Made by a program: the position numbers and the translations under genes. Of a stretch of DNA of 64,000 nt, positions 56,482 to 58,562 are shown piece after piece. The stretch is taken from assembly GCF_014058705.1 (NCBI RefSeq), contig NZ_CP059692.1:2857001-2921000 (forward strand). Direction: 5' to 3'. The notes below the pieces were generated by a model. That model had not been told where the DNA came from. It made no database searches and saw only the letters and a list, made by a program, of their open reading frames with translations. Within the stretch, counting starts at the first letter, position 1, and every line of letters starts with the position of its first letter. The stretch is from Aureimonas mangrovi. Lineage in GTDB: Bacteria; Pseudomonadota; Alphaproteobacteria; Rhizobiales; Rhizobiaceae.

Positions 56482-56493
56482 TACCGACCGGTA
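56482..56493. promoter_or_regulatory. TetR-type operator candidate 1
   Basis: TACCGACCGGTA, one mismatch from a perfect palindrome, 44 bases before the TetR gene start. It is the copy nearest the repressor gene and is well placed for autoregulation. Confidence 0.6.
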
Positions 56494-56538
56494 GCGACAG
56501 TCTCTTGACGATCCGCGACCTTCACACCAATTGCTTCC

Positions 56539-56552
56539 ATACCAAACGGTAT
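56539..56552. promoter_or_regulatory. TetR-type operator candidate 2
   Basis: ATACCAAACGGTAT, a weaker copy with intact ATACC/GGTAT ends. It lies 101 bases before the TetR gene start. Confidence 0.55.
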
Positions 56553-56672: not shown

Positions 56673-56686
56673 ATACCGATCGGTAT
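56673..56686. promoter_or_regulatory. TetR-type operator candidate 3, next to an A/T-rich block
   Basis: ATACCGATCGGTAT is a perfect 14-bp palindrome. Immediately to the left (56641-56672) is an almost pure A/T stretch that is rare in this genome and could be an UP element or promoter core. Confidence 0.65.
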
Positions 56687-56732
56687 TGATCGCCTCTTGA
56701 AGGATTTCTCACCACTCCCCAGATAGGGTTCC

Positions 56733-56746
56733 ATACCGATCGGTAC
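56733..56746. promoter_or_regulatory. TetR-type operator candidate 4
   Basis: ATACCGATCGGTAC keeps the perfect core TACCGATCGGTA. It is 60 bases from copy 3 and 230 bases before the first small secreted-protein gene. Confidence 0.65.
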
Positions 56747-56807
56747 TGATCGATGTTCGACGAGTTCGGTGATCGGGGGCAAGGAAATGAAACATCGCTA
56801 GATGCCG

Positions 56808-56842
56808 ATCGCTCATCGGCCGGCCCACGACCGGTGAGCGAT
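56808..56842 (+). other. Leader hairpin upstream of the small secreted-protein genes
   Basis: ATCGCTCA (56808-56815) pairs with TGAGCGAT (56835-56842), and four more pairs continue inward, giving a 12-bp stem with an 11-base loop. It lies between the last operator and the first small gene, so it would be in the 5' untranslated leader if transcription starts near copy 4. Confidence 0.4.
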
Positions 56843-56975
56843 GCGCATCGAACGCATCCAACGAGGGGATGGGACGTCCCCACCTACGAAACGACCAGGC
56901 GCAGGGCCCTACGAGCCGACGACCAACATGGGTCGCGGACGCGGCCGAACACGCCCGAACACAAGGTTCAGAACC

Positions 56976-57284
56976 ATGATCCGCAAGACCTTCCTGACCG
57001 CTGTCGCCGCCGCTGCCGCCCTGTCCGCAGCTCCTGCCATGGCCGACGTCTATCTCGGCACCTACGGCCGCGAGGACAACAATGCCGACATCATCCGCAT
57101 CGAGCAGGCCGCGCCTCTCGTCTCTGCCTTCGCAGAGGGTGACCGCGCGTTCGGCGCTCCGCGCATGACCGTCGCGACCACGCAGAGCCACCGCCCGAAC
57201 GTCGCGCCCGAGCAGGCCAACGACAACGAGTACCTGGGCACAGCTCGGCGCTACCAGAACAACGCCGACGCGAACCTTCGCTGA
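56976..57284 (+). CDS. Small secreted protein of unknown function with paired YLGT motifs, copy 1
   Basis: A 102-residue protein that I do not recognise as any named family. Residues 1-22 form a Sec signal peptide (MIRKTFLTAV, Ala-rich core, cut near APAMA-D), so it is periplasmic or secreted. The mature 80 residues are hydrophilic and start DVYLGTYGREDNNAD; the C-terminus repeats the pattern as EYLGTARRYQNNAD. The motif YLGTxxRxxNNAD thus brackets the protein. There are no cysteines. The start ATG has AAGG eleven bases upstream. It is followed after 53 bases by an almost identical second copy and preceded by a TetR operator array. Function cannot be assigned. Confidence 0.8.
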   Translation: MIRKTFLTAVAAAAALSAAPAMADVYLGTYGREDNNADIIRIEQAAPLVSAFAEGDRAFGAPRMTVATTQSHRPNVAPEQANDNEYLGTARRYQNNADANLR

Positions 57285-57645
57285 ACACGCTGGCTCCCCA
57301 GCGCACCCGATCCGCAAGTCATAAGGATACCGACATCATGATCCGCAACACCCTTCTGGCCACCGTCGCCGCCGCCATCGCCTTGTCTTCGGCTCCCGCC
57401 ATGGCCGACGTCTATCTCGGCACCTACGGCCGCGAGGACAACAACGCCGACATCATCCGCATCGAGCGGGCCGCGCCTCTCGTCTCTGCCTTCGCAGAGG
57501 GTGACCGCGCGTTCGGCGCTCCGCGCATGACCGTCGCGACCACGCAGAGCCACCGCCCGAACGTCGCGCCCGAGCAGGCCAACGACAACGAGTATCTGGG
57601 CACAGCTCGGCGCTATCAGAACAACGCCGACGCGAATCTTCGCTA
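57036..57645 (+). repeat. Tandem duplication of a 248-bp coding segment (period 362 bp)
   Basis: Bases 57036-57283 and 57398-57645 differ at only a few positions, nearly all silent third-base changes, while the signal-peptide parts and spacers on either side differ far more. The mature proteins differ by one residue (Gln to Arg in RIEQAAPL/RIERAAPL). This points to a recent duplication or ongoing gene conversion limited to the mature region. Confidence 0.9.
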
Positions 57646-57646
57646 A
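57338..57646 (+). CDS. Small secreted protein of unknown function with paired YLGT motifs, copy 2
   Basis: A 102-residue twin of the preceding gene. The signal peptide differs at several positions (MIRNTLLATVAAAIALSSAP), but the mature part is the same except for one Gln-to-Arg change. The ribosome site is better (AAGGAT eleven bases before ATG). A strong intrinsic terminator comes 30 bases after the stop, so the two copies probably form one transcription unit. Possible roles include a periplasmic stress or envelope protein; no function is claimed. Confidence 0.8.
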   Translation: MIRNTLLATVAAAIALSSAPAMADVYLGTYGREDNNADIIRIERAAPLVSAFAEGDRAFGAPRMTVATTQSHRPNVAPEQANDNEYLGTARRYQNNADANLR

Positions 57647-57675: not shown

Positions 57676-57716
57676 AAGGCCGCGGATCCTCCGGGATCCG
57701 CGGCCTTTTCGTTTTT
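57676..57716 (+). terminator. Strong intrinsic terminator after the small secreted-protein pair
   Basis: GGCCGCGGATCC (57678-57689) pairs perfectly with GGATCCGCGGCC (57694-57705) around a four-base loop. TTTTCGTTTTT follows. Confidence 0.9.
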
Positions 57717-57806
57717 AACCATCCGAAACGATCCCTGGAATCCTGCCGTGTTTAGCCGTATTCCGGTGCGACAGAGAGCTTCCCGAACGGCCAAACGAGG
57801 TGCCCC

Positions 57807-58562
57807 ATGGCGATGCCCCGCCCCCTTTCCCTTCTCGCGTTCATTCTTCTCGCCTCGGGCCCGGCCCTCGCGCAACCGGCCGATCGAGGGCCCGGCCCTC
57901 GCGACGTGCCCCGCGTGACCGTCGTCGGCGAGGGTGAGGCCCATGCCGCGCCGGATCTCGCCGTCACCAATCTCACGGTCCTGCGCACGGCCGAAACGGC
58001 CGAGGCCGCGGTCACCGACGCCAACGGCGCCATCGCCGCCGTCACCGATGCGGTGCGCGAGATGGGCATTGAAAGCCGCGACGTTCAGACGGGTCGCTTC
58101 TCCATCACACCGCAATATCGCTATGAGAACCGGCAGGACGGCACCTCTGCCCCACCTGAACTCGTCGGCTACGAGGTGCGCAACACGCTGACCGTGCGCG
58201 TGCGCGATCTGGACCGTCTCGGCGATCTCCTCGACCGTGCGGTCGAGCTCGGCGTCAACGAAGGCGGCGACATCGCCTTCCAGATCGAGGATCCCTCCTC
58301 TCTTCAGAACGAGGCCCGCCGCCAGGCGGTAGAGCGCGCCCGGGCGAGCGCCGAAGTGCTGGCCGATGCCGCCGGGCAGTCGCTCGGGCGCATCATCCGC
58401 ATCACCGACGATCCCGTTCGCGTCTTTCCGCAGCCCGAGCGCGGCCAGATGATGATGGCCGCCCGCGCAGCCGACGCTTCCGTGCCGATCGAAGCCGGCG
58501 AGAACACCGTCAACGCTCGCGTTGAGGTCGTGTTCGAACTGTCTGACGACACGGCCGAATGA
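57807..58562 (+). CDS. SIMPL-domain (DUF541) periplasmic protein
   Basis: A 251-residue protein with a signal peptide ending near GPALAQP. The rest is a SIMPL domain: it starts VTVVGEGEAHAAPDLA, has ITPQYRY and LVGYEVRNTLTVRVRDLDRL, and ends EVVFEL. Members include the periplasmic oxidative-stress protein YggE of E. coli, but their biochemical activity is unclear. A 16-bp direct repeat (57857-57872 and 57888-57903) spans the end of the signal-peptide region and the Pro/Gly-rich linker behind it. The gene appears to be a single unit after the terminator of the small-protein pair. Confidence 0.88.
   Translation: MAMPRPLSLLAFILLASGPALAQPADRGPGPRDVPRVTVVGEGEAHAAPDLAVTNLTVLRTAETAEAAVTDANGAIAAVTDAVREMGIESRDVQTGRFSITPQYRYENRQDGTSAPPELVGYEVRNTLTVRVRDLDRLGDLLDRAVELGVNEGGDIAFQIEDPSSLQNEARRQAVERARASAEVLADAAGQSLGRIIRITDDPVRVFPQPERGQMMMAARAADASVPIEAGENTVNARVEVVFELSDDTAE

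Follow-up and report, generated by a model that had tools for sequence, protein, structure and literature searches.

Two tandem genes of Aureimonas mangrovi, each specifying a small exported protein, probably represent the exported arm of a response to toxic-compound stress; with fair, though not high, confidence they can be regarded as the secreted component of a small regulon under a CifR-type TetR repressor. The first conclusion is drawn because, in related species, the same repressor switch runs a drug pump together with an exported protein of similar build. The genes lie in a 64,000 nt stretch of contig NZ_CP059692.1 (positions 2,857,001 to 2,921,000), here called the window, to which all coordinates refer (Table 1).

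Table 1. Predicted features of the twin locus, in window coordinates.
Feature	Position	Strand	Details
tetR, CifR-type repressor, 209 aa	55809..56438	-	TetR_N + TetR_C_13
Operator-promoter-operator module 1	56482..56551	+	TACCGACCGGTA, TTGACG (56505-56510), 17-nt spacer, CAATTG (56528-56533), TACCAAACGGTA (56540-56551); layout as in congeners
Operator-promoter-operator module 2	56674..56745	+	TACCGATCGGTA, TTGAAG (56697-56702), weak -10 AGATAG (56721-56726), TACCGATCGGTA (56734-56745)
Twin gene 1, exported protein, 102 aa	56976..57284	+	AAGG at 56963-56966
Twin gene 2, exported protein, 102 aa	57338..57646	+	AAGGA at 57323-57327
Intrinsic terminator	57676..57717	+	perfect 14-bp stem and T-rich tail, 57676-57707; fold z = -5.7
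SIMPL/DUF541 protein (oxidative stress defence type)	57807-58562		directly after terminator

Both twin reading frames proposed in the first-pass annotation were confirmed. The proteins are 93% identical, and each begins with a signal peptide of classical type, the cleavage site being assigned by rule between APAMA and DVYLG. From D24 onward, the mature parts differ at a single residue (Q44R). The DNA after codon 24 shows six differences in 237 nt, stop codon included (four silent, one replacement and a TGA/TAA stop codon change), compared with 14 over the 72 nt that encode the signal peptide (Fisher p = 5.5e-6), in agreement with the earlier description of near-identical mature parts, mainly silent DNA changes and differing signal peptides. 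The pattern said to open and close the mature protein is also real: the internal repeat YLGTxxRxxNNAD, present as YLGTYGREDNNAD near the N terminus and YLGTARRYQNNAD near the C terminus, was equalled in score by 0 of 2000 shuffled sequences. Codon usage is host-like, with a CAI-like value of 0.72 (other frames, 0.29-0.37; the downstream SIMPL gene, 0.66). The mature protein, about 79 aa long, is probably disordered; the AlphaFold model is uninformative, since its lack of a fold (pLDDT 47) fits disorder but would be expected from a two-sequence alignment as well. The two genes form a unit that is closed by a strong terminator, as had been noted. In the leader between module 2 and twin gene 1, an imperfect inverted repeat (ATCGCTCATCGG ... 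CCGGTGAGCGAT, 56804-56850) was spotted by eye and is a possible leader hairpin.

Judged by sequence alone, the twins are an orphan. The host genome (3.49 Mb, one contig) carries exactly two copies, and no relatives were found in 20 congeners, 395 genomes of the family, GTDB contigs, IMG/VR viral contigs, phages or plasmids; weak matches (E 0.01-0.1, low identity) were taken as chance. The sensitive profile searches suggested in the first-pass annotation returned no Pfam or NCBIfam family at its cutoff, which upholds the description of an undescribed secreted protein. Phage_OMP, VapA and cmx were rejected as candidate families, their hits (E 0.02-0.1) falling far short of the cutoffs of these collections, and nothing exceeded an Rfam gathering score.

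The way in which the copies differ suggests that their mature parts have been kept alike by gene conversion or by recent partial copying. Gene conversion would account for this most simply, because the copies are nearly identical only beyond the signal-peptide region and silent sites are depressed there too (4 of 79 codons differ silently, against 4 of 24 within the signal peptide; p = 0.08). Selection for a high dosage of the mature protein, claimed earlier as the reason for two copies, is possible but not required, and we consider it unlikely: promoter module and gene are each present twice at the locus, as dosage selection would favour, while the shortage of silent changes is also what conversion or recent copying would leave behind on its own. 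The unit of tetR and twins adjoins a SIMPL-GGDEF-rpoD block, which in two congeners occurs without the unit nearby. The SIMPL gene was considered as a partner of the twins and rejected; it lies behind the terminator and is found in all 21 Aureimonas genomes, including congeners without twins, and is therefore probably unrelated to them.

The gene divergent from the twins encodes a TetR protein with full-length similarity to CifR of Pseudomonas aeruginosa. Among proteins of solved structure, the closest to it are 2i10 and CifR itself (6nsn), both with E values of about 1e-42 (CifR: phmmer E 6e-42, residues 3-193). Cys105 aligns with the CifR cysteine that is a serine in entry 6nsm, and a second cysteine, Cys114, is common to the correctly extracted Aureimonas orthologs. 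Orthologs of the repressor (53-61% identity) were detected in 14 of 20 congeners. Upstream of the twins, four palindromes fit TACCGNNCGGTA with 0-1 mismatch (starting at 56482, 56540, 56674 and 56734), whereas 0.59 such matches are expected in the window and four were reached in 0 of 100 shuffles; the operator array read from the sequence earlier is thus substantiated. Together with putative promoters the palindromes make up two tandem modules, 192-194 nt apart and aimed at the twins, and in the host genome strict operator matches occur only at this locus. A consensus promoter scan reported no promoter, and no paper containing the operator sequence was found.

Comparison with other species supports the assignment of repressor type, operators and promoters. 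A pair of TACCGATCGGTA-like palindromes lies upstream of the tetR ortholog in 14 of 14 congeners; in those inspected, the palindromes are 57 nt apart and flank a sigma-70-like promoter, TTGACA-17-TAATTC, directed away from tetR. The palindrome-TTGA-palindrome pattern was matched 18 times, spread over 14 of 21 Aureimonas genomes; in reverse it was matched nowhere. Beyond Aureimonas, the composite module was seen in just one other genome of a 397-genome sample of the order, where it is situated between a TetR of the same type and a divergent SDR gene. CifR-type tetR genes of Actinomycetota and of another family of Rhizobiales (L065-L069, L201) are likewise accompanied by operators resembling TACCGATCGGTA; an SDR oxidoreductase is encoded divergently at L066 and L201.

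In the congeners the module usually faces a gene whose exported product is about 96-118 aa long (10 of 14 tetR loci). These proteins start their mature part with LVPGSD or a near variant, carry a GYP-type motif in the middle and end with LVPGSDSF. Among 12 congener tetR loci surveyed for RND pumps, each over 18 kb, eight had genes for an adaptor and a MexF/OqxB-like pump, five of them with the small gene before the pump and three without it; another three carried the small secreted gene and no pump. The eight loci with a MexF/OqxB-like pump behind TetR operators are L114-L117, L119 and L121-L123. Paralogs of the small gene that are unlinked to tetR retain operators, either in pairs (L145-L147) or as single sites (L140, L144), and similar sites precede two genes of another Rhizobiaceae genus (L176, L177). 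Because unlinked paralogs keep them, the operators are associated with the small secreted gene and not only with tetR. Operators are missing from other LVPGSD genes, many of which encode three copies of the motif. More broadly, proteins with PGS[DE]-xxx-R-type repeats and often a central FGYP make up a so far undescribed small exported family in Aureimonas congeners (L130-L159) and other Rhizobiaceae (L168-L182), with several paralogs per genome, some bearing operators and some in tandem (G020:C13, G008:C15). Neither Pfam nor NCBIfam holds a model for the PGS[DE]/LVPGSD proteins.

The predicted control of the twins by TetR is well supported by this comparison, since the operator pair and promoter are kept together with the repressor and the small secreted gene. 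The operators might instead serve tetR autoregulation only, the twins being expressed independently from a promoter in 56746-56975; the distance of about 230 nt from the last operator to the first twin ATG and the weak -10 element of module 2 would fit such an arrangement. In the congeners, however, the pair likewise precedes the small gene by 200-330 nt and the TTGACA promoter points at that gene, while paralogs unlinked to tetR are preceded by the same operators, and we regard autoregulation alone as very improbable. Genes for an adaptor and RND pump are absent from the twin locus, an ortholog of the congener pump is absent from the whole genome (best RND match, 44%), and the family profiles find no LVPGSD protein there. 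With strict operators found only at the locus, the exported protein is therefore the only target recognised in this genome. Since two tandem modules face the twins, and pump ortholog and LVPGSD protein are both missing, we conclude that the twins fill the secreted-protein slot of the regulon.

Whether they fill it as relatives of the LVPGSD proteins is a separate matter. The two share locus position, orientation divergent from TetR, operators, length, signal peptide, a design with one motif at both mature ends, and FG[Y/A]P in the middle (RAFGAP in the twins, RSFGYP in the others). They differ in that YLGTxxRxxNNAD replaces LVPGSDxxxR, the literal VPGSD motif being absent from the twins, and a tandem near-identical pair was seen at none of the congener tetR loci. 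Against a profile of LVPGSD mature parts, the twin scored 8.1 bits, a value reached by 183 of 20000 shuffles, compared with 2.7 bits for the best unrelated secreted control; among 2622 arbitrary fragments it ranked third, two scoring higher. Profile-profile alignment (hhalign) aligned only the signal peptide, and no intermediate sequences linking the two forms were present in the collections searched. Homology to the LVPGSD family is thus suggestive only. The missing VPGSD motif, the lack of intermediates and the restriction of the profile-profile match to the signal peptide would all suit an unrelated orphan, acquired or arisen de novo, that came to lie next to a CifR-type tetR gene and adopted the promoter there, its likeness to LVPGSD proteins being convergent; the lineage-specific position beside SIMPL-GGDEF-rpoD would suit it too. 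Against such an origin stand the slot, orientation and operators that both share, their like length and their design with a motif at each end, along with a profile score well above the controls, and we hold it to be rather unlikely, if a serious contender. The twins probably work like LVPGSD proteins, in the same slot, without being proven members of that family. A wider proposal, tentative and in our estimate falling a little short of an even chance, is that CifR-type repressors in Rhizobiaceae have, as a conserved output, an undescribed superfamily of exported proteins that evolve fast, are disordered and carry a motif at either end, whether or not an efflux pump is also controlled, and that the twins are the most diverged member of this superfamily, in which promoter module and gene have been duplicated.

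From these elements we infer the following course of regulation. TetR would sit on the operator pairs and shut both tandem promoters until freed by a reactive or toxic small molecule, perhaps an electrophile if the analogy with CifR, which senses epoxides, holds. A single bicistronic mRNA would then be made, ending at the terminator, and the two signal peptides would send one and the same protein, largely disordered, into the periplasm or out of the cell. There its role may be binding or protection, directed against the stress that is relieved by the pump in relatives; ligand and molecular function are both suggested here by analogy. The role of envelope factor put forward in the first-pass annotation is plausible, given the signal peptide and the co-regulation with an RND pump in relatives.

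TetR repressors beside efflux pumps are common. What sets this regulon apart is that the target kept in most congeners, and the only one found in this species, is a tiny exported protein for which no domain model exists, which raises a testable question about the contribution of such a protein to defence against the compound sensed by a CifR-like repressor. The case also indicates that promoter architecture can give a place to what looks like an orphan of a single species when sequence divergence has put it beyond the reach of homology searches.

Two known systems invite comparison. In Pseudomonas aeruginosa, CifR keeps a divergently transcribed operon repressed until epoxides release it (PMC8244358), and the title of a paper cited in that source speaks of two CifR binding sites. 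The window locus resembles the cif operon in its divergent TetR of the same subfamily with a shared cysteine, and in the paired palindromic operators between tetR and the divergent target. It differs in what is controlled: CifR targets are an epoxide hydrolase, morB and an MFS transporter, whereas here the target is a small exported protein, accompanied by an RND pump in relatives. The second system comprises TetR-controlled RND efflux operons, among them FrrA-FreCAB and the BjG30 locus of Bradyrhizobium japonicum, in which a TetR gene lies beside RND pump genes and induction is by a plant compound in plant-associated Rhizobiales (PMC4070704). The congener loci are similar in having TetR next to RND pump genes; unlike them, the window locus is pumpless, with the exported protein as sole remaining target. 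The window locus would be a TetR-regulated stress locus of a known kind whose output, an undescribed exported protein, is new.
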